Below, one piece after another: positions 10,247 to 40,961 of a stretch of 41,263 nt of DNA (position 1 is its first letter; the number at the start of each line of letters is the position of its first letter). The notes below the pieces were generated by a model. The model did not search any database. It was given only the letters and a program-made list of their open reading frames with translations, and was not told where the DNA came from. The position numbers and the translations under genes are program-made. Source of the stretch: Lachnospiraceae bacterium (lineage in GTDB: Bacteria; Bacillota; Clostridia; Lachnospirales; Lachnospiraceae); contig JAFTVH010000117.1 of NCBI GenBank assembly GCA_017465845.1, positions 1 through 41,263 on the forward strand. Reading direction: 5' to 3'.

Positions 10247-11212
10247 ATGAAAAAAATAAGCAAATTAGAACAGAGAAAGGTGATGAAGAAAATGTTAAAC
10301 AATGTTGAAGTAATCGGTGTCGACCATGGTTGGTCTATGATCAAAACAGCATACTGTGTGTTTGCAACAGGAGTAAAGGAAATCCCCAATGAGCCACCCA
10401 TGCGGAATGACATACTGGAGTATGAGGGACGCTTCTATTCAATCGGAGAAAGACGTTTGGAAGTAAGGTCAGAAAAAACAGAGAATGAAAACTTTTATCT
10501 GCTGACACTGGCTGCCATGGCAAGGGAATTAAAAAAGAGAGGCAAATATGAGGCAAATGTGTATCTTGCGGCAGGTCTTCCGATTTCCAGATTCAGTGAT
10601 GAAAAGAAAGGATTCATTGAGTATCTGGGAAAGAAAAAGGAAGTGGTATTCCGATTTGAGGATGATGTGTTCCATGTACGCATTGTACATGTAGCGGTAT
10701 TTCCACAGTGTTATGGGGCTGTGGTAGACAGAATCACAGAATATACCCAAAGAGTTGTGGTGGTGGATGCCGGCTCCTGGACCATTGATATCATGCCTAT
10801 TGAGAACAAGAAGCCTGTAAACGGTGAATGTATCTCACTACAGAACGGATTGATTCCTTGTATGCGTAAGATCAACGAGAGATGCTATCGCTCCTATAAT
10901 ACAGAACTGGATGAAAGTACTATCCAGCGATATATGATGACCATGAATGCAGATGTGGATGATGAATATCTGGAGCTGATGAAGGAAGAGCTGCAGCATT
11001 ATGCAGATGGTGTGTACAATTCTTTGAGAGAGTATAAGATCAGTCTGAAAACCACGAAAATCGTGTTTGTTGGCGGTGGTGCAGTGGTGATTAAAAACTT
11101 CGGGAATCTGCAACAGAGAAATATCTCATATGTGGTGGATGTTAAGGCAAATGCAAAAGGGTTTGAGTACCTTGGCAAATTATCTCTGCAGAAAAAGCAG
11201 AGGGAGGGATAA
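10247..11212 (+). CDS. parM: ParM/StbA-like actin-type segregation ATPase
   Basis: 321 aa. Actin-fold signatures are in order: phosphate-1 VIGVDHGWSMIKT (Asp26), phosphate-2 VVVVDAGSWTIDI (Asp174) and the adenosine motif VFVGGGAVVI near the C-terminus. Proteins of this type polymerise with ATP and push DNA copies apart. The next gene, 3 nt downstream, encodes a small DNA-binding-like partner, so the two form a ParMR-type cassette. The start ATG is preceded by AGGGG about 9 nt upstream; in-frame ATGs at codons 13 and 16 are alternatives. A TTGACA at 10204-10209 with only a weak -10 lies just before. In an ICE this suggests a replicating or segregating circular stage. The centromere site is not identified; the folded region upstream is a candidate. 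Confidence 0.85.
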   Translation: MKKISKLEQRKVMKKMLNNVEVIGVDHGWSMIKTAYCVFATGVKEIPNEPPMRNDILEYEGRFYSIGERRLEVRSEKTENENFYLLTLAAMARELKKRGKYEANVYLAAGLPISRFSDEKKGFIEYLGKKKEVVFRFEDDVFHVRIVHVAVFPQCYGAVVDRITEYTQRVVVVDAGSWTIDIMPIENKKPVNGECISLQNGLIPCMRKINERCYRSYNTELDESTIQRYMMTMNADVDDEYLELMKEELQHYADGVYNSLREYKISLKTTKIVFVGGGAVVIKNFGNLQQRNISYVVDVKANAKGFEYLGKLSLQKKQREG

Positions 11213-20264: not shown

Positions 20265-20979
20265 ATGGGGACAAGTAAAAAGAAACCATCCGTAGTCTTG
20301 TTTTTGCTTGGTTCTTTGCTTGCAGCCTATCTTGGTTATCTGGTAGGTGGTGTATGGGAGGAAGGGATGGTATTTGCCACCTTCCTTCCGGCGTTTCTCA
20401 AGGTATGGGAGAATCCTTTCGCAGCTTACTGGAGTCCCTACACTGTAAAATGTATTGTAGCAGTATGGTTTATCTATGCATTGGCGATGGTCATGTATTA
20501 TACCAGCCAGCGTAATCTTCAACCGGGAAAAGAATATGGTACTGCTAAATTTGAAAATCCCAAAAAGGTGAATAAAATCCTGGCAGATAAAGATGAGGAT
20601 TTCAATCGTATCTTAAGTAAAAATATAAAGATGTCACTCAATTTCAGAAGATTGAAACTGAATGGAAATATCCTTATCGTCGGTGGCAGTGGCTCTGGTA
20701 AGACTTTTTTTGAGGTAAAGCCCAACTTCATGGCTATGCCGAAGAAGTGCTCTATTGTTGCTACCGATCCTAAGGGGGAACTCCACCGAAGTGAAGGACA
20801 TATGTTGAAGCAACACGGGTATCAGGTAAAGGTACTCAATCTGGTGGAGATGGATAAGTCAGACTGCTATAATCCCTTTGCTTATATCCGTGAGGAAACG
20901 GATGTGGTGAAACTGATCACCAACCTGATCGCCAATACCACTCCAAAGGGTGCGACACCCTCCGATCCATTTTGGGAGA
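20265..20979 (+). CDS. virD4: VirD4/TraG-type coupling protein, exon 1 (5' part, interrupted by group II intron)
   Basis: This exon encodes the first 238 residues: two membrane helices (about 9-28 and 66-85), the Walker A GGSGSGKT (from about residue 140) and the family text ATDPKGELHR and NLVEMDKSDCYNPFAY. It breaks after DPFWE plus the first base of the next codon. Unspliced reading continues into the intron and stops at 21036-21038. Joined to 23717-25170, the total is 2,169 nt, 722 codons plus a stop, in frame, with the join reading DPFWE-KAESLFLQS. The ATPase recruits the relaxase-DNA complex to the transfer channel. The ribosome site is AGAGGTAAG. Confidence 0.92.
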
Positions 20980-21674
20980 GTGCGACTTGTTTGCAGGCGG
21001 TAAAAAGCCTACACACGAGCAACAGTTCATGTTGTTAGTGAACTGATAATTTGATAAGTGGAATGATAGGGTAACGCCTTGAAACGCTTACACTTGATGG
21101 GCATGCACTTTCTGTAATGGAAATTGTATGAAGCCCCATGACAAAGGCTGAGAGTAACCGTAATAACTTGCCAAAAGTTATCGAAAGCAATCCAGAGGTG
21201 GATTGTGTTACCTATAGGTCGAGTGTCTATAAAATATCTATGGTTAGAATGAGTATCCTGGCAGATGCTCTGACGAACTCGCGAATGTACGGGTCTATAA
21301 GAAGACTGTGTAGAAATGCACAGGTACGTTAAAGCGTAGCTAGTGTGGTTTAGTAGAAATTGTCCCTACGAACGACCATCTTATGTTACAGGCATAAGCA
21401 AGCTAGCAGGCTCATAGTGGGAACCTAAGGATATATATGCAAAGATAGAATTATCGGAACAAGGAAAGGCATTGGGTTCTATTAAGAATAATCTGACGAA
21501 GAACAATAAGCAGATGAACCAATGCTGAAAAGTAGTGTTCGAACCAATGAAGCTTTTGTAATGAAAGCAGAGGGATGGGCACAAGTCGTTGGTCTAAATG
21601 AGCATTATTCAATCGCTATAAGGATTCGAATATGACCAAAAGTGTCACTTTCAATCAAGAGGAGGTGATGCCTT

Positions 21675-23570
21675 ATGCCAAAAGGAAAGAAAAACCTATG
21701 TGTAGATAGCCTAAGGCATGCCGAGTACTACGACATGCAATCTACGTTTGACAATCTGTATCAGAAAAGCAAAGAGGGAGAAGTTTTTACGAATCTCATG
21801 GAACTTATACTTGATAGGAATAATATCCTATTAGCATACAGAAATATTAAATCGAACACAGGCAGTTACACAGCTGGTACTGACAATCTAACCATCAACG
21901 ATATTGGGTGCTTGCCACCCGAAGAGGTTATAAGGAGAGTCAGATATTATGTCACAGGAAGTCAACACGGCTATCGCCCCAAACCTGTTAGACGAAAAGA
22001 AATACCGAAACCTAATGGTAGTACGCGTCCGTTGGGCATTCCCTGTATATGGGACAGACTGATACAACAATGTATCAAGCAGATACTTGAACCCATATGT
22101 GAAGCAAAATTCAGCAATAACAGTTATGGTTTCAGACCGAATAGGTCTGTAGAACATGCAATTTCGAAAACTTATTCATTGTTGCAAAGGTCACATCTGC
22201 ATTATGTATTGGAATTCGATATTAAAGGCTTCTTCGATAATGTAAACCATAGCAAGCTGATAAAACAAATGTGGACAATGGGTATCAGAGATAAGCAACT
22301 TATTTATGTCATTAAGCAGATATTGAAAGCTCCTGTTCGCATGCAAGATGGTAGCACTATAATCCCCGACAAAGGGACACCGCAAGGGGGAATAATTTCT
22401 CCGCTGCTTGCTAACATCGTGTTAAACGAACTTGACCATTGGGTGGAAAGTCAATGGCAAGAAAATCCCATTGTATATGAAAAAGGTAAAGAGCGTATGA
22501 TACGAAATTCAGTGGTCTTTGATAGAAGCCATGGTTATACGGTCATGCGAAGGACATCATTAAAGGAGATGTATATCGTAAGATATGCAGATGACTTTCG
22601 TATATTCTGTAGAGACAGAGAAGTCGCTGAGCGGACAATGATTGCAGTTACAGACTGGATTACTACTAGACTAAAGCTGGAAGTGTCGCCAGAAAAAACT
22701 CGCATTATCAATGTCAGAAAACGATATTCGGAATTTCTTGGATTCAAAATAAAGGTTAGGACAAAGGGGAAAAAGTATGTGGTTAACTCTCATATATGTG
22801 ACAAGAAGCAGATAGCAGAAAAAGAGAAACTTGTGGAGCAAGCGAAACGAATCGCAAGACCTCGCCAAGGATACACACAACTTACAGAAATAACACTGTT
22901 TGATGAGATGGTCCTTGGTATTCAGAATTATTACAGGATAGCAACATGTATAAGCCTTGATTGCAAGGATATTCATAGAGCTGTAATGACAGTACTAACT
23001 AATCGGTTAAATACTGAAACTGGCTCACGATTGATGCGGACAGGCGGAACAATGACAGAAAGCGAAAAGGAGCTGTATGGTAGTTCAAAAATGATACGTT
23101 ATGTATCAGGAATAGAGCGACCCATCTATCCTATAGCATACGTCAAATACAAAGTCGCTATTGGTATTAGTTCTTCGGTTTGCTGTTATACCAAAGAAGG
23201 ACGCACCAAGCTACACGAAAACCTCAAAATCAATCATCGCATTATGTCAGAACTGATAAGTCAGAAAATGATAAATCATAGTCTGGAATATATGGATTGT
23301 AGACAATCATTATTTTCAGCACAAAAGGGCAAATGTAGTGTGAGTGGAGAGGAATTTGTAAGTGCAGATGAGGTTGGGTGTTGCCTAAAGAAACCTAAGG
23401 AATTAGATGGAAGAGAGCAATACCATAACATGGTTCTTGTAAAAAAGAAATATCTTCCGCTGATTTTAGAGGAAGATGAGCAGAAACTACAAGAATATAT
23501 CAATGCTATCAAACCAGAGAAAAAACATCTAACAAAGATAAACAAACTTAGGGAACTAAGAAAACTTTGA
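21675..23570 (+). CDS. ltrA: Group II intron reverse transcriptase/maturase
   Basis: 631 aa, ATG behind AAGAGGAGGTGATGCCTT. Domains in order: RT fingers/palm with PKPNGSTRPLGIP and the palm block FDIKGFFDNVNH. GTPQGGIISPLLANIVLNELD and the active-site YADDFRIFC follow. Then the X/maturase region (EFLGFKIKV, IQNYYRIAT) and a C-terminal HNH-like region beginning KCSVSGEEF. In the latter, the place where intron endonucleases have His-His reads VGCCLKKPKEL, so the endonuclease may be inactive or variant. The protein helps splicing and can promote retrohoming into the same site in other coupling-protein genes. Confidence 0.95.
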   Translation: MPKGKKNLCVDSLRHAEYYDMQSTFDNLYQKSKEGEVFTNLMELILDRNNILLAYRNIKSNTGSYTAGTDNLTINDIGCLPPEEVIRRVRYYVTGSQHGYRPKPVRRKEIPKPNGSTRPLGIPCIWDRLIQQCIKQILEPICEAKFSNNSYGFRPNRSVEHAISKTYSLLQRSHLHYVLEFDIKGFFDNVNHSKLIKQMWTMGIRDKQLIYVIKQILKAPVRMQDGSTIIPDKGTPQGGIISPLLANIVLNELDHWVESQWQENPIVYEKGKERMIRNSVVFDRSHGYTVMRRTSLKEMYIVRYADDFRIFCRDREVAERTMIAVTDWITTRLKLEVSPEKTRIINVRKRYSEFLGFKIKVRTKGKKYVVNSHICDKKQIAEKEKLVEQAKRIARPRQGYTQLTEITLFDEMVLGIQNYYRIATCISLDCKDIHRAVMTVLTNRLNTETGSRLMRTGGTMTESEKELYGSSKMIRYVSGIERPIYPIAYVKYKVAIGISSSVCCYTKEGRTKLHENLKINHRIMSELISQKMINHSLEYMDCRQSLFSAQKGKCSVSGEEFVSADEVGCCLKKPKELDGREQYHNMVLVKKKYLPLILEEDEQKLQEYINAIKPEKKHLTKINKLRELRKL

Positions 23571-23716: not shown

Positions 23717-25170
23717 AAGCAGAGTCGTTGTTTTTGCAGTCCATTTTTTATTATGTGTGGTTGGAATGTTCTCCGGCGGAAAGAAATTTCAGAACGGTAC
23801 TGAAGCTGATGGGCGAGGCGGAAGTCGTGCAGGAGGGAAAGAAGTCTCCACTGACAGAGCGTATGGAGAGGCTGGCAAGGGAATCCAAGCTTGGTAACAA
23901 TCACCCTGCAGTTAAGCAGTATTATAAATGTATGCGTGGTGCCGGTGATACGGTCCGTTCCATTATCATCAGTGCCAACTCCAGACTTGCTTTTTTGGAA
24001 AATCAACAGGTGCTGCGATTGCTTTCAAGAGATGATCTGAATCTGTCTCAGCTGGGGATTGGTGTCAATGGGGACGAAACGACCCGTACAGCGCTGTTTT
24101 GTGTGATACCGGATTCCGATAAGTCCTACAACTTTATCATAGGCATGCTCTATACCCAGATCTTCCAGGAGCTGTATTATCAGGCAGATTTTGTATATGG
24201 CGGCAGACTGCCCATTCATGTGACCTTTATGTTGGATGAATTTGCCAATGTGGCACTTCCCGATGACTTTTGTTCCCTGCTTTCTACCATGCGAAGCAGA
24301 GAAATCTCCAGTGTGATTATTATCCAGAACTTTGCCCAGTTAAAGGCGCTTTTTAAGGATACCTGGGAGACAATCCCCGGAAACTGTGATACTTTTATTT
24401 ATCTTGGCGGTAATGAGCAGTCAACACACAAATACGTGTCAGAGCTTCTGGGTAAGGGAACTATTGACAAGCGAAGCAGCGGAGAAACCAAAGGAAAGCA
24501 GGGAAGTTCTTCGCAAAATTATGATGTGCTTGGCAGGGAACTGTTTACCCCGGATGAAGTAAGAAAGCTGGATAATAAGAAATGTATTCTTTTTATCCGT
24601 GGTTTTGATCCGATTCTGGACGATAAGTATGTACCATTTAACCACTCCAGATTTAATCTTACGGCAGATGGCAAAGGTAAGCCTTATGTGCATAAGCCTG
24701 AGGAGAAAAAAGGTGCGGTAGGCCCTGTGGTGGAATTATTATCGCCGGAATCCGTGAAGTACTATGCACGGCTGAAGGAAAGAGGGGCAAATGTCTATAT
24801 CCAGGAAATGAAATATGAGGATTTTATGCTGCTCGGACAGGCCGGATTAAAGAAGAAATTCATGGAGGCTGATGAAGCGGATCAGAAGGCGAGAATGAAC
24901 GAGGAGCAGGGACAGGAGCTGGAGTATGCTCAGGAGCATATGCAGCCGCAAAAGGCTGTTAATGACCAACAAAAGGCCGGTCAGCAGAAACAAATCAATA
25001 TATCAGAAGAGGATTCCCTGATAGACAGAGAATTGAAAGCAGTGTATTCGGCAGAACAAAAAGAAGCACTGCGGCAGGCACTGGTAAAGAAGATTGCCAT
25101 GCGGGAACTTATGGATTACTATCACCCGGATGTGACAGCAGAGGAAATGCGCAGGGCATGGAACCTATAG
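23717..25170 (+). CDS. virD4: VirD4/TraG-type coupling protein, exon 2
   Basis: This exon starts with AAGCAGAGTCG and supplies residues from the split Lys codon to the C-terminus (about 484 residues). It begins AESLFLQSIFYYVWLE, continues with NFRTVLKLMGEAEV and RGAGDTVRSIIISANSRL, and contains the Walker B region IHVTFMLDEFANVALPDD. IIIQNFAQLKALF and LGGNEQSTHKYVSELLG follow, as in TraG/VirD4 hexamers. The last 80 residues are Gln/Glu-rich. An ATG at 23751 inside this exon is not a start. Without splicing it would have no ribosome site of its own, so transfer should depend on intron removal. Confidence 0.92.
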
Positions 25171-32291: not shown

Positions 32292-35200
32292 ATGTACAAT
32301 AAGTATATGGTACAGGCAATCTATGATGATGCCATAAAACAAGCTACTTCCTCGGAACGGAAGTGGAAAGAAATACTTCGGCTTGCGGGTAACAGTTACC
32401 GCTTTGAATTTGACAATATCCTGATGATCTATGAGCAGCGTCCTCATGCAACTCTGGTTACAGATTATGATACCTGGACAGATGTGGGGCGGTATGTAAA
32501 GAGGGGAAGCAAGGGGATTGCCATCTTCCCCTCCCGTGCATTAAAACCCTATCTGAAATATGTATTCGACATTGCAGATACCGGTGGAAGTAACAGGCAG
32601 CTAACCTGGAGTCTTAATCAGAATAATCTTTCTGATTATCTGAAGCTTCTGGTAGCAAATGGGGAACTGGCGGAATACCCCACGGGTGAGGAAAAAGAAC
32701 AAAAAAATTCTCTTAAATTATTTACAGGAACAAATGTTTGGGGTATAATAAGAACTGACTTCGAGGATCGAATGTCAGAATTAAAGCAGATTACAGGTAG
32801 TGTGATCAAGGATTTCAGCGAAAAACGTGAGGGCTTGGAGCAGCGTGATACGATAGAGGACTTTGTCCATAAAAGTATTATGTATGTTGTAGGTACGAGA
32901 TGTGGATTTGAGTTGTCTGGCGAAGAACAGGACTTTCATCAAATCGTGGATATTACGGATGAAGAAGTAATATACCGGCTCGGTTCCCTCATATGCGATG
33001 TCTCCTGTAATGTTCTTGGAGAATTCAGTAAGAATTTAAAGACCATTGAAAGCGAAAGGAGAATTGCATATGGCAGTAGCATTAACGTACCACGAAGTGG
33101 ACGGTCTGCAGTATCCGGATATCGAGATGCCGGAAGAGCAGGAGAAGAAATTAACCAATCTGGGCAAATACGGAATGATGGCGATGAAATATCTGCAGGA
33201 GAACGAGAAGCAGAGGTACAGAACCCTGCAGAGGTTCGGGACATTGGCGGAAAAGATGCATCAGGTGGACGAGGAAGCGAACGAACTTCTGGAGAAGCTG
33301 ATGAACCAATATCTGCAGCAGAACAAGCCGGAGAATCCGGGATCCACCATGGAGATGTGGAAACTGAGAGAGCAGGCGAAGATGCAGGCAGAGGAAGTGG
33401 TGCTGCATCAGGTAGTGATGAAGTTTCACTAATAAAGGAAGTTCCACCAACAGTGGATGAGGTGGAAGATGAAGAACTGAATAGAGAGCTTGATGAGATC
33501 AACTCATTAGGAAACAGGGAAGCCGGTGAATATCATCAGGCTTCTTTTTTTGATGCTGAATATGGCTTCAACATGGGAAATACTCCTGCAGAAAAGACTT
33601 CTGCAAAAAAGACTAATAAGTTAAAACTTACCAACGAAAGTACAATACAAACAGAAGGCAAGAAATACACTTATTTGGAACCGAAGAAAGCAACGGTGGT
33701 ACCACATGAGTATGTAAGAGAGGTCCTTTTGAGGGGATCAGGGTTTTCTGGTGGGAAAGCGCGTATTTATATGTTGTACACCAATACTGTGGATCCAAAA
33801 GAAAGAGTGAAGCTGCTGAAAAAAGAGTATGGTATAGGTGGAGCAGGATGGCCGATCAAAGGCTATGGTTTGCATGGATATGACACGCATCATGGTAATG
33901 GAATCCGTTTTCAGTGGCGTGATGAAGAGGGAGAGGTTGAAGGATATCTTCCTTGGAAAGCAGTGGAACGGGAGATTGGAGCACTGATTCTGACAGGGGA
34001 ATATTATCAGCCGCCACAAGAATTGCAGCAGGAAACAATGGAGGAAGAAATCTCAGAGGAAGAAATTACGGATGAAGAAAGCTTTGCGGAAGATGCAGAA
34101 CAAGATTATAACAAAAAGCTGTCTGATGATGAGATTGAAGCCATTTTAGAGGAAGATCGTAGACATGCGGAAGAACGGTATGAGCAGGAACAGGAAGCCT
34201 TAGAACGGGAAGTGTTTGAGCAGGAGGTTTCTCAGAAAGAGGTGTCCGGTGAGGAAGCTGCGGAAGTGTCGGAGGCGGTTGATGATACAGTGAAAGAGGC
34301 AGCAACGGAGCTTTATGATTCGTCAGATACTACTCCCATAGATTATGCAAAAGTGATTCACGACATGGATGAAGATCTTCGTACCGCGTTGGAGATCCTG
34401 GTCAGTGAGTGCACCATTTATAATCCCCACAAGCCATTTTTGCAGGATATTGTATCATCAGATTTGTTCATGCCGCAAAAGCTGGATTTTCTGTCGGAGA
34501 TTGTGCTGAATGGCAGAGAAGAACGGAAGGCATATGCGAATAATGCCTATGGTCTGATTGAATATAAGCTTCATCCCTTTGACATTGAATTAAACTTTAA
34601 GAATCACAGCGGCGAACGTGTCACAGAAAGCATTGGATATCGGGAACTGTATGAAATTCTTTCTTATATGGTAAAGGTTCCTTATTATTGTGGGGAAGAC
34701 CAGCGGAAAAGGTTCGATGAACTGATATCCGGGGATCGTGAATCGCTGCAGCCTATTTATCAGGATTATCTGCATAAATGTGAGCGAAGAAAGGAACAGC
34801 TGGAAGTCCAGAAGGAAAAACAGGAGAAAGTTGCTGGATCAGAACTGGAAGAAGTCGTATCTGTCGAAAAGCATAACTTCCACTACGACTTGTGGGAGCT
34901 TCCGAAAGGGGGATCCAAAACAAGATATAAATGGAATGTGGAAGCAATCCGCTTGTTAAAGCAGATTGAAAGTGAGAACCGATTGGCTACGGAAGAGGAG
35001 CAGAAGGTCTTATCCTATTATGTTGGCTGGGGCGGTCTGGCAGAAGCCTTTGATCCGGAAAACAAAAACTGGGAAAAGGAATATGCTCAGTTAAAAGAGA
35101 TACTGTCAGAGGAAGAATATGTTGCAGCAAGAGCGACGGTTAACACTGCTTTTTACACTACGCCTGAGATTGCAAGCTGTATGCACCAGGCACTTATTCA

Positions 35201-38200
35201 ATTCGGATTTCGTGGAGGTAATGTGCTGGAGCCCAGTATGGGTGTGGGAAATTTCTTTGGCAGTATGCCTGAGGTCTTGAATAACTGCAGATTGTATGGT
35301 GTGGAGTTGGATGACATTTCCGGGCGAATTGCAAAGCAACTTTACCAGACAGCGGATATTCAGATTAAGGGCTTTGAAGAAACTACCTATCCGGACAATT
35401 TCTTTGATGTGGCAGTGGGTAATGTGCCATTTGGTGATTATAAGCTGTATGACCCTAAGTACAATAAGTATAACTTCCGTATCCATGATTATTTTCTTGC
35501 AAAAGCGGTAGATCAGGTCAGACCGGGAGGTATAGTGGCATTTATTACTACCAAAGGTACTATGGATAAGGCAAATCCCACGGTCAGAAAGTATCTGGCA
35601 GAACGGGCGGAGCTGATCGGTGCCATACGACTTCCCAACACAGCCTTCAAGGAGAATGCAGGGACGGAAGTGACTGCAGATATCCTGTTTTTACAGAAAA
35701 GAGAGCGTAAGATAGACATTGAACCGGATTGGGTACACCTGGGATATACCGATAATGGTATTGCTGTCAATTCCTATTTCGCAGAGCATCCGGAAATGAT
35801 GCTGGGAAGCATTGAGTACGATACAGGAATGTATGGGCCGGACAGCAGAACTACCACCTGTATTAATCGTGATCCGGATTTCAATCTGTATGAAGCAATC
35901 AACCAAGCTATTCAGAATCTGAAAGCACAGATGCCGGAATTTGAACAGATTGCAGAGGAAGGAGAGGTCAGTGAGGATGTGATTCCGGCTGATCCCGATG
36001 TACGGAACTACACCTATGCATTTCGGGATGGAAAGCTGTATTACCGGCAGGACTCTCTGATGTTTCGTAAAGAATTATCGATGCAGATGGAAGATCGGGT
36101 CAAGCTGCTGGATGAGATCAGAACAGTGACAAGACATCTGATTGATATTCAGACAGAAGGCTGCAGCGAAGAGGAGCTAATTGCCAGTCAAAAGATTTTG
36201 AATGAAAAGTATGATCGTTTTGTAGCAAAGTATGGTGCAATCAATTCCCAGATGAACAGCAGGGCATTCCGTGATGACAGCGACTATCCATTGCTTTGCT
36301 CTCTGGAAGATGTAAATGAGGATGGTCAGGTTAAGAAAGCGGATATGTTCTATAAACAGACCATTAAAGCGAAAGTACACATTGAAAGAGTGGAGTCTGC
36401 AGTGGAAGCATTGAATATCTCCATGAATGAATTTGGATATGTGAATATTCCCTATATGCTCAGCCTTTATGAGCCTGACATCAGTGGAGATATCCGTGAA
36501 ATGGAGGAAAAAACCGGGGAAGAGGTTCAGTTGTCGGAAGATGCAGCGGCAGAGTTAAGCAGGGGTAAATTGATCACAGAGCTGCAGGGGCTTATCTATC
36601 CAAATCCTGTAGTATATAATGAAGAAAATCCGAATGAAGGATGGGAGACTGCAGATGAATATCTTTCAGGGAATGTAAGGGATAAGCTTCGTGTGGCAAG
36701 AGCCTTTGCCAGAGAAAATCCGGAACAATTTGCCCAGAATGTATCGGCACTGGAGCAGGTACAGCCGGCAGATATCGAAGCAGGAGATATTGATGTGAGG
36801 ATTGGTACCACCTGGATTGAGCGAGAGGATTATGAGCAGTTTATTTATGAACTTCTGAATACGCCAAGAAAATATAGGGCAATCCGCACCCAGTGGTATC
36901 AGTCCGGTATTCAGCTACACCTGAATAAGGCAAATATGGAATGGTTCATAGAAAATAAATCCATGGATAAGCGTTCCGTGGCAGCAACCAAGACCTATGG
37001 TACCGGCCGCATAGATGCGTATTCGATTTTTGAAACCACCCTGAATCTGAGGACAGTTACAGTAAGAGACCGCATTGATGATGGGGACGGTAAGTATCAT
37101 TATGAGATTAACAAAAACGAGACCATGCTTGCCAGAGAAAAACAGAACCAGATGAAGGAAGCCTTTAAGGAATGGTTGTTCAAGGATCCTGACCGCAGGC
37201 AGAAGTACGTGACCTACTATAACGAAACCTTTAACAATGTACGCCTTAGAGAATATGATGGGTCTCATCTGACATTTCCTGGGATGAATCCGGTAATTGA
37301 GTTAAAACCTCATCAGAAGAATGCGGTGGCAAGGATTTTGATGGGTGGAAATACCCTTCTGGCACACTGTGTAGGAGCAGGCAAGTCTTTTGAAATGATG
37401 GCAGCCTGTATGGAACTGAAAAGACTTGGACTTGCCAATAAGACCATGATGGTGGTACCCAAGCCATTGATCGGCCAGACTGCCAGTGAGTTCCTTCGTC
37501 TTTATCCGTCTGCAAATATTCTGGTGGCTACGGAAAGAGATTTTGAGAAAAGCAGGAGGAGGCAGTTTATCAGCAGGATCGCTACAGGGGATTATGACTG
37601 TATTATTATGAGCCATTCGCAGTTTGAAAAAGTGCCTATCTCTCCGGAGAGACGAGAACGAATGCTGCAGAGTCAGATCGATGAGATTAGTTATGCCATT
37701 GACGAAATGAAGGCAAATAACGGTGAGCGGTGGACAATCAAGCAGATGGAAGCGCAAAAGAAACGGCTGACGGAGCAGATCAAAAGCCTGGCAGATGAGA
37801 GCAGGAAGGATGACCTGATCCATTTTGAAGCTCTTGGGGTGGACTGTATCATGGTAGATGAGGCTCATGCGTTTAAGAATTGTGCCATCTTTTCTAAGAT
37901 GAATAATGTGGCGGGTATCAGTTCTTCAGGCTCCAAGAAAGCCATGGATATGCTTTTGAAGTGTCAGTATCTGTCAGAAATAAATCCTGGCAGGGGCATT
38001 GTATTTGCAACAGGAACCCCAATCTCCAATACTATGGGAGAGATGTATGTGATGCAGCTATATCTGCAGAAGCAGACGCTTGAGGAAATGGGAATTCACC
38101 ATTTCGATTCCTGGGCAGCCAACTTCGGTGAAGTTACGACTGCGTTAGAATTAAATGTGGAAGGCAGCGGCTTCCGCTTCAAGAGCCGGTTCAATAAGTT

Positions 38201-39800
38201 TACCAATCTGCCAGAGCTGATGAATATTTTCCGGGAAGTGGCAGATGTGCAGACAGCAGATATGTTAAAACTGGATGTGCCGGAACTTCGGGATGGAAAA
38301 TATAATATCGTCGAATCGGAGCCGGATTGGTATGTGAAGACCGTCATGGAGGATTTTGTGCGACGTGCGGAAGCAATCCGAAGCGGTAGCGTAGACCCCA
38401 GTCAGGATAATTTCCTAAAGATTACTCATGAAGCAAGGCTTCTTGGTACAGATGCAAGACTGTTGGAGAAAGATGCACCCAATAATGTAGATGGTAAGCT
38501 GAATAAGGTAGTGGATAATGTAATTTATGAATATGAGAAGGCGAAAGCTGATGGCAAGATAGGCTGTCAGCTTATTTTTTCGGATATCGGTACTCCCGGA
38601 GACAAAGATTTTGATGTATACAGTTATATCAAAGAGCAGTTGGTTGAGCGGGGGATTCCGACAGAGGAGATCGCCTTTATTCATGATGCAAAATCTGATG
38701 CCCAGAGAGATGTATTGTTCAAGGAAATGCGGACCGGTAAAAAGAAAGTGTTGATTGGTTCCACCGAAAAGTGTGGTACCGGTGTCAATGTGCAGACGCA
38801 CTTGGTAGCTATGCACCATGTAGACTGCCCGTGGAAACCTTCCAGTATTGAGCAGAGAGAGGGGCGTGGCATCCGTCAGGGGAATGAAAATGATGAGATT
38901 GCGGTATACCGCTATGTGACGAAAGGGACTTTTGATGCCTATAGCTGGAGTCTGGTGGAGAATAAGCAGCGGTTTATTTCTCAGGTTATGACCAGTAAGA
39001 CTGTATCCAGAAGCTGTGAAGACATCGACGAGGCAACACTTTCCTATGCGGAGATCAAGGCGGTAGCTACAGGTAATCCTCTGATCAAAGAGAAAATGGA
39101 GCTGGATAATGAGGTACAGCGTCTGAAGCTGCTAAAGGCATCCTATGACAGTCAGCACTATGCTCTGCAGGATAACTTTATGATTCGGTATCCTAAGCTG
39201 ATTGCTGCAGCTAAGGCAAAGTTGGGGGCTGTCCGGGCAGATATGACAGTTAGGGATGAAGAACTGTTAAAGAGCGAAGAATTTGCTATTACCATCGGAA
39301 AAACCACGTTTACTGAACGTGTGGATGGGGGAACGGTCATGCTGGAGGCAATCAGTAAGTGTAAGACCGGGGAAAGCACTGCACTGGGACAATACAAAGG
39401 ATTTATTCTTTCCGTGGAAAAGAAGTTTCTGGATGTCAGTTATCTGGTATTACAGGGGAGAACAGAGTATAAAGCGGAACTTTCCAATAGCCCGGTAGGT
39501 AACATGGTCAAGATTGAGAATCTGTTTAACAACATTCAGAGCAATGAGGAATTTTTGCTTCAAAAGATAGAACAGTATGAAAACGATATGGAAGCATCCC
39601 GTATCCAGTATGAAAAGCCTTTTGAATATGAACAGGAGCTGAAAACAAAGCTGGCCAGACAGTATGAACTGAACACAGAGTTGGATCTGGAGAATAAAAA
39701 GGTGGCAGATATGGACCTTGGCGGCATGGAGGATGATCGCAGCGGATGTGTGGCAGAACCGGAATATGTCTATGGTTCAGAACGATCCCATGGCAGATAA
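32292..39800 (+). CDS. Giant ArdC-like / N6-adenine methylase / SNF2 helicase protein, 2,502 aa
   Basis: Domains in order. Residues 1-130 resemble the ArdC N-terminal ssDNA-binding domain ([36 protein letters not shown]). Residues 250-385 are a Gly/Glu/Ala/Ser linker. Residues 580-720 are a Glu-rich stretch. The methylase part carries motif [14 protein letters not shown] (from 978) and the catalytic NVPF (1044-1047, the NPPY place). The SNF2 motor has Walker A GAGKS (1695-1699), DEAH (1856-1859), [14 protein letters not shown], and the motif VI text [17 protein letters not shown]. Such proteins are thought to protect or process incoming DNA and may counter restriction. The ATG follows AATGGAGGTATGAG. 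A second gene is embedded in the linker in another frame. Confidence 0.88.
33070..33432 (+). CDS. tnpV: TnpV-family protein overprinted inside the SNF2 gene (other frame)
   Basis: A 120-aa frame in a different reading frame from the giant gene. AAAGGAGA (33055-33062) lies exactly 7 nt before its ATG, a near-ideal ribosome site. The product matches my memory of Tnp[60 protein letters not shown] and a C-terminal [20 protein letters not shown]. The giant protein in the same place (about 260-380) is a low-complexity Gly/Glu/Ala/Ser linker, so the second frame can vary freely there. TnpV proteins are small, soluble, and of unknown function in transposons and ICEs. The overlap looks real, because random frames do not give a full family match plus a ribosome site. 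Confidence 0.82.
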
Positions 39801-40210: not shown

Positions 40211-40271
40211 GCTGTTTTTATTTGTAACTTATAAAAAAGATAAGCCATAATGGCAGAAAGTGAGTGTAATT

Positions 40272-40961
40272 ATGAAGTATTCAATCAGAGTAAATGAAGT
40301 AAAAAATATGGAAGGCAATATCAGAGGATTTGCCACGGTGGTATTTAGTGATTCCTTTAAGGTAACGAATATCGCAATCTTGGAAAATCAGGAAAAAGGG
40401 CAGTTGTTTGTATCCATGCCCAGATATCGAACCAATGAACGGGATGAAAATGGAAATGTCTATAAGGATATCTGCAATCCTATCACGAAGGAATTCCGAG
40501 AGGAATTGTATGGAAACATACTGGAGGCATTTGAAAATCTGCAGAAGCAGGATCGTGAACAGGAAAAGGGACAGGAGCGTGATGAGTTCCGCACTGCACC
40601 GGATTTTACAGTATCCGTCACTCCTTATGAAAGAGAAGGCAGTAACATCAAAGGCCTTGCAAGAATCTATTTTGAAGACAGCTTTATCGTCAACAATGTG
40701 AATATTCTGCAGGGAAAGGAGAGTCTGTTTGTTGCCATGCCTTCCTACAAAACTAAGCAGAACGATGAAAACGGAAAACCAAAGTATCAAGAGGTATGTT
40801 ATCCGGTAACAAAGGCGTTTCGAGATAAGCTGTATAAGGAGATCATTTCCTCTTATGAGTGGGAAGTACAACAGCAAAAGAAGAATAATAATAACCAGCT
40901 TGGCGGACAGAAGCAGACTGGGAGACAGAATGATTATGATAGGAGAAGTTCCTTGCGTTGA
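40272..40961 (+). CDS. Tandem SpoVG-domain protein
   Basis: 229 aa from the ATG at 40272. Two SpoVG units are present: residues about 1-95 (SIRVNEVKNMEGNIRGFATVVFSDSFKVTNIAILEN, GQLFVSMPRYRT, DICNPITKEFREELYGNILEAFE) and about 110-205 (FTVSVTPYEREGSNIKGLARIYFEDSFIVNNVNILQG, ESLFVAMPSYKT, VCYPVTKAFRDKLYKEIISSYE). SpoVG binds nucleic acid as a dimer of single domains; this fusion may be a covalent dimer. The tail is Asn/Gln/Arg-rich. The start is supported by its alignment with the usual MKYSIRVNEV opening; the ribosome site is weak. Confidence 0.85.
   Translation: MKYSIRVNEVKNMEGNIRGFATVVFSDSFKVTNIAILENQEKGQLFVSMPRYRTNERDENGNVYKDICNPITKEFREELYGNILEAFENLQKQDREQEKGQERDEFRTAPDFTVSVTPYEREGSNIKGLARIYFEDSFIVNNVNILQGKESLFVAMPSYKTKQNDENGKPKYQEVCYPVTKAFRDKLYKEIISSYEWEVQQQKKNNNNQLGGQKQTGRQNDYDRRSSLR

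Follow-up and report, generated by a model that had tools for sequence, protein, structure and literature searches.

Small genes nested on the same strand inside larger ones, in another frame and with a start of their own, are a known kind of gene arrangement, as in lambda Rz/Rz1 and Bacillus srfA/comS; annotation pipelines tend to leave such genes out, and in bacteria, phages aside, long same-strand nests that persist across wide evolutionary distances are considered rare. Free-standing tnpV genes are carried by mobile elements of the Tn4451/Tn6104 type, and for the TnpV of Tn4451 an excision role was postulated from its likeness to lambda Xis, according to the available part of PMC3158075. 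Polyvalent proteins of the DarB-like type, which occur in phages and on conjugative elements, are treated in the available part of PMC5512222. Here we describe a tnpV gene that lies within a giant DarB-like gene in a 41,263-nt stretch of Lachnospiraceae DNA (the window, meaning the whole stretch that was analysed). Its product belongs by profile to the same family as TnpV of the Tn4451/Tn6104-type elements, is of similar length and likewise sits on a mobile element; unlike those free-standing genes, it is nested in the other frame of a giant, and in three annotated plasmid records with the same nest it is unannotated. Compared with Rz/Rz1 and srfA/comS, the inner frame here seems to be the older of the two, the residues of the outer part are unconstrained, and the inner family also occurs free on many elements. 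No earlier report of a nested TnpV was found in the literature searched, outside which most subscription papers and preprints lay, and none appears in the available parts of PMC3158075, PMC9815147, PMC11913394, PMC5512222 and PMC2542354; PMC5512222, which covers polyvalent proteins including DarB-like giants, uses neither the word 'TnpV' nor 'overlap'.

A tnpV frame within a giant DarB-like gene

The preliminary description of this DNA, made from its letters, had pointed to an outer gene open through 2,502 codons, to an inner frame matching TnpV along its length behind a ribosome site, and to low complexity of the outer protein exactly at the overlap, and all of these observations held (Table 1). 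The outer ORF is continuous, and the tnpV frame lies entirely within it. The PF14198 search gave 92.4 bits for the inner ORF (cut-off 27; E 2e-26) and covered profile positions 1-111 of 111, and in alignment A2, which comprises the window and 47 nested relatives, 48 of 48 sequences matched PF14198 at E 0.001. The AlphaFold2 model of TnpV (pLDDT 88.6) predicts a beta hairpin and five helices, and its composition is that of a folded protein, in contrast to the outer linker encoded by the same bases, which is rich in G, E, D, R, S, A and P. The ribosome site, noted earlier as AAAGGAGA with a spacing of 7 nt, is the same site as the AAGGAG listed here, and in the outer frame it falls within the codons GAA AGG AGA (Glu-Arg-Arg).

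Table 1. Positions in the window of the nested gene pair and its parts.
Feature	Position	Strand	Basis
Outer gene, giant DarB-like polyvalent protein (methylase + SNF2-type helicase), 2,502 aa	32292..39800	+	ORF; Pfam; phrog_10089
N-terminal domain of outer protein, residues 1-257, weakly ArdC-N-like; bait for relatives	32292..33062	+	PF08401, alignment A1
Shine-Dalgarno AAGGAG of inner gene, 8 nt before ATG	33056..33061	+	conserved in relatives
Low-complexity outer linker, residues 260-380, same bases as tnpV; residues unconstrained, frame kept open	33069..33431	+	composition; dN/dS; open-frame counts
Inner gene tnpV, 120 aa + TAA, +1 frame of outer gene	33070..33432	+	PF14198; conservation; dN/dS; AlphaFold2
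DarB-like methylase-helicase core, residues 859-2470, common to phages	34866..39701	+	phrog_10089; tblastn of phage records

In the outer protein, Helicase_C and ResIII scored above the Pfam cut-offs and SNF2-rel_dom and Eco57I slightly under them, and phrog_10089 ('DarB-like antirestriction') matched with 1566 bits, its best stretch being the core of ~1,600 residues; both searches place an adenine methylase fused to an SNF2-type helicase in one chain, and the core is common with the DarB-like polyvalent proteins. At the N-terminal end, PF08401 gave E 5e-3 against the whole outer protein and 20.5 bits against its first 380 residues, under the 22.6 cut-off. In the 30 phage records listed by tblastn, the alignment of named phages to the outer protein was limited to the core, while in four faecal contigs among these records (H18, H19, H29 and H45) the N-terminal end aligned too. 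By these likenesses the outer giant is of the anti-restriction type; such giants are widespread on conjugative elements, and the nest would place a conserved, overlooked small protein inside them.

Relaxase, coupling protein (T4CP) and TraG P-loop genes are all present in the window, and because they surround the giant gene we call the element conjugative; the inner TnpV is accordingly one carried on a mobile element. The T4CP gene seems to be in two parts (20265-21038 and 23728-25170), with a reverse-transcriptase ORF (21675-23570) between them, split as by a group II intron. The window also holds an actin-like gene (10247-11212) and, downstream of the giant gene, a gene of the SpoVG family (40260-40961).

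Conservation of the nest among relatives

Relatives were gathered with the outer N-terminal domain alone (257 residues; alignment A1, 37 sequences), blind to TnpV, from 200 genomes of the family together with further regions, from 398 genomes of the phylum (30 loci fetched), from viral contigs (69 loci, of which the 11 best, L167-L177, were used) and from named genomes (the best 80 of 561 loci). Removal of identical copies reduced 193 loci with the domain to 175, of which 159 had it in full; in 154 of the 159 the sequence went on for more than 700 nt past the domain. Three plasmid loci (L102, L103 and L106) had been found via TnpV; only L103 passed these limits, and its exclusion left 153 loci, the window included. 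Fourteen stand-alone tnpV genes supplied the TnpV profile with which all frames of the loci were scanned. In 145 of the 153 loci, a set drawn in part from the best 80 of 561 loci of named genomes, TnpV occupied the same position within the outer ORF, again in its +1 frame. With L103 there are 146 nested matches, each in one unbroken ORF and covering at least 100 profile positions in 144. The only other sense-strand matches in the 154 loci were one in the +2 frame inside the ORF and three outside it, all distant from the linker, and the scan of all frames with the stand-alone profile gave no antisense match in these loci. Near copies remain in the counts; the nested copies comprise 91 representatives more than 12% apart from each other.

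Among the 64 nested copies from named genomes (drawn from the best 80 of 561 loci), 58 were from Clostridia and one each from Erysipelotrichia and Bacteroidia, the latter in a metagenome bin that bears the label Bacteroidales; the remaining four had no class. Plasmids of Enterococcus faecalis and Virgibacillus carry the same +1 nest under a CDS named 'SNF2-related protein', with no TnpV listed, and in the three annotated plasmid records, whose gene table is incomplete, 'SNF2-related protein' alone stands beneath the TnpV match. As judged from sequence comparison, the nested arrangement is old and common to conjugative elements of Bacillota, many of them of gut bacteria.

The eight exceptions among the 153 loci comprise four diverged +1 ORFs, three short ORFs (L158, L161 and L169; 259-304 aa) and one giant from which tnpV has been lost. 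The four diverged loci (L097, L098, L099 and L151) have a +1-frame ORF of 135-144 codons at the same place, with a Shine-Dalgarno sequence; against PF14198 (cut-off 27), L151 reached 26.2 bits, L097 18.7 and L098 17.9, all under the cut-off, and hhalign of the four together against TnpV gave Prob 74 and E 2.7e-5, a likeness that we rate as moderate. For comparison, L164, a partial giant outside the 153, scored 29.8 bits. L070, with stops in the +1 frame, is the sole giant of the 153 loci without an inner ORF, and because it is placed on starred branches of the N-terminal tree among giants with TnpV, it is read as a loss of tnpV. Its next conserved block starts 60 residues after the N-terminal domain, compared with 298 in L291, and the domain is still in frame with that block.

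The outer ORF was shorter than 1,800 aa in 14 of the 62 nested loci with the outer stop in view, and in the two of these 14 that were inspected, L048 (2731 onward) and L057 (2746 onward, reverse complement), the giant ORF ends soon behind the overlap with tnpV and other sequence follows, which in L048 looks by eye like a transposase frame.

Selection on both frames and conservation of the inner start

The preliminary description had proposed that both frames of this same-strand pair are used, and had suggested following the inner frame through relatives and comparing synonymous rates in both frames; the first comparison is the survey above, in which the inner frame was kept unbroken at 145 loci, and the second gave the same answer. 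In 56 pairs, each sequence being used once and substitutions being classed by their effect in both frames, dN/dS in the overlap was 0.25 (0.23-0.28) for the inner frame and 1.27 (1.12-1.45) for the outer. Beyond the overlap, the dN/dS of the outer gene was 0.23 for the N-terminal domain and, over at most 300 codons downstream of the overlap, 0.33 (51 pairs). Stand-alone tnpV genes served as a control (18 pairs), in which the inner frame gave 0.17 and the outer-equivalent frame, meaningless there, 1.03 (0.83-1.30). Since the outer ratio is about 1.3 in the overlap and 1.03 in this control, the linker residues are free.

The outer frame is nevertheless held open. Of the full-length TnpV copies, 152 of 152 with the N-terminal domain at most 1,500 nt upstream had it open, compared with 0 of 65 without the domain; three further full-length copies, too near the contig start to judge, had it closed, and the third frame was closed in all full-length copies. 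TnpV fragments behaved similarly: 9 of 9 behind the domain had an open outer frame, as did 1 of the 10 lacking it, and in one that was unjudgeable it was closed. By chance the outer frame is expected to be open in 9.6% on average when the synonymous codons of tnpV are shuffled, and in 0.4% when codons are drawn at the giant's usage. These counts bear on the proposal that tnpV alone is real, the outer frame being open by composition and the giant being two proteins with a downstream restart. The high dN/dS of the outer linker, at least 1, and its codon usage unlike that of the giant would agree with this, but the strict dependence of the open frame on the upstream domain, set against the chance expectation, does not, nor does L070, where the domain stays in frame with the next conserved block although tnpV is lost; we regard the two-protein proposal as very improbable.

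Reciprocally, the inner frame is open beyond what chance would give: when the synonymous codons of the outer linker were shuffled in the 146 nested copies, it was open in 7.5% on average (median 3%). With stops masked, these shuffles scored a mean of 17.6 bits and at most 79.0 against the stand-alone TnpV profile, compared with a mean of 90.5 and a lowest score of 56.4 for the 146 real copies. Because 690 of 2,920 shuffles still reached 27 bits, part of the likeness to TnpV comes from the outer residues by themselves. This speaks in favour of a giant that alone is real, its TnpV match being a frame-shifted fossil of a tnpV insertion that is no longer made, as does the annotation of the outer gene alone by gene finders in the three plasmid records. 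Against such a fossil stand the low inner dN/dS, the unbroken and nearly complete match in the nested copies, and a start and ribosome site that are conserved and low in structure (below), so that it can hardly be credited. Taken over both frames, the substitutions and open-frame counts indicate that selection acts on both, the inner frame being under purifying selection independently of the outer and the outer frame being maintained through the overlap. With a built-in control, the inner gene where the outer frame is lacking, and with ~90 representatives that differ by more than 12%, rates and constraints of dual coding become directly measurable.

Start sites were analysed in 149 nested copies, one of which had no candidate start; where several existed, the one with the best Shine-Dalgarno match was chosen. 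The chosen start was ATG in 141 of 148, and a match of at least 6 nt preceded it in 125 of 148, compared with 0.9% of 12,673 control start codons located downstream in that frame; when the start nearest the profile start was taken instead, such matches were found in 90 of 148 and none of the listed motifs in 41 of 148. In the outer-protein alignment, a column at the Shine-Dalgarno site has Arg in 88 of 149 sequences, encoded by AGG in 83 of the 88; the share of AGG is 14.3% elsewhere in the gene, and no other Arg column exceeds 23 of 99. Since this alignment was trimmed at 30 nt past the start that had been chosen, it is codon-blind, yet not fully start-blind. The mean folding energy of 50-nt windows was -3.9 at the inner start, -4.4 at -25 and -7.2 at +25, compared with -8.5 to -10.3 at 50-150 nt away, and folding at the start was weaker than the mean of same-gene GC-matched windows in 94% of 141 copies. 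The inner ribosome site and ATG are therefore conserved across the nested copies, and the predicted RNA structure at the start is low.

Collectively, two genes very probably share the bases of the overlap, an internally initiated tnpV and the linker of the giant. TnpV would be started within the mRNA of the giant at its own ribosome site and ATG and be made as a separate helical protein of 120 residues, while ribosomes from the giant's start would continue across these bases in the frame one position back, and their reading would yield a flexible, sequence-tolerant linker joining the N-terminal domain to the rest of the giant.

Origin of the overlap and possible role of TnpV

Two origins had been offered in the preliminary description, a linker that arose from tnpV and a tnpV that came to lie in a tolerant linker, and the evidence now favours the first over the second. 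In relative codon usage (RSCU), the inner frame correlated at 0.67 with the remainder of the giant and the outer frame, within the overlap, at -0.16 (bootstrap of the difference 0.68-0.95); this polarity test takes a poorer fit as the mark of the younger frame. Because codon usage fits the inner frame and TnpV looks like a fold in comparison with the composition of the linker, we favour tnpV as the older frame, with the giant's linker printed over it. A tnpV that arose or landed in a pre-existing tolerant linker would be in keeping with the readiness of giant-protein linkers to accept insertions and with the existence of free-standing tnpV genes that could have inserted. Its codon usage, however, fits the giant gene where the outer frame's does not, and L070, the sole giant without tnpV, has a far shorter linker, so that this origin seems unlikely.

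For a linker derived from tnpV, the likeliest route is a fusion of the flanking genes by reading across a live tnpV, in which the gene upstream and the darB-like gene downstream would have been joined and the bases between them would have become linker. No elements were found in which the gene of the N-terminal domain, tnpV and a darB-like gene are still separate, and for this reason the fusion route is one that we infer. The later history was followed through distances and trees. Outer and inner distances were correlated over the 91 representatives (Mantel r 0.873; 0 of 999 permutations as high). A tree of TnpV, with 71 nested and 43 stand-alone copies among its 114 rows, is unrooted and poorly resolved, with 41 of 111 inner branches open; in it, stand-alone clades lie among nested ones, and there are no fewer than 9 changes of label, of which starred branches force at least 3. 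Because all 151 nested copies occupy one place in one frame, one origin followed by escapes fits better than repeated capture, and the free-standing tnpV genes on other mobile elements are probably escapes from the nest. The complete sequence of events, in which the genes of the N-terminal domain and the darB-like part were fused across an intact tnpV, the double-coded state spread and free tnpV escaped several times, is put forward tentatively, as an account with something short of an even chance. If it is true, the fusion swallowed a working gene, the giant's linker being tnpV read one frame back, and the double-coded nest is a reservoir for free tnpV across the conjugative elements of Bacillota; it also suggests a way of making a protein linker out of a neighbouring gene.

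The possible role of TnpV was approached through the gene neighbourhoods of 18 of the stand-alone tnpV loci, in which ten neighbours were scanned with Pfam. A large serine recombinase gene lies upstream of tnpV at L327 and L345 (Pfam). ParB-like genes lie upstream at L014 and L022, and a ParM/actin-like gene directly follows tnpV at L022 and L002 (Pfam) and at L014 (by eye); by the likeness of these genes, this is a partition neighbourhood. Other neighbours were relaxases (L331 and L136), a tyrosine integrase (L002) and an AAA ATPase (L015). That TnpV acts as the recombination directionality factor (Xis) of the element agrees with the role postulated for Tn4451 TnpV in the available part of PMC3158075 and with the two loci that have a serine recombinase upstream, but other stand-alone copies adjoin ParB/ParM-like or relaxase genes, and we consider an Xis role doubtful. 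Fold searches with TnpV returned weak best matches, with no winged-helix Xis among the matches listed. With low confidence, TnpV may instead be a small accessory protein of the element's DNA transactions, be it recombination, partition or establishment, that would be made from the same mRNA as the giant.

Further tnpV copies were seen beside nested ones. In L258 (17339-17686) and L308 (18466-18807), a second, free-standing tnpV lies several kb behind the giant with its nested tnpV, and the genome of the window holds five more PF14198 matches (contigs C30, C40, C141 and C161) beyond the nested copy, two of the five being fragments.
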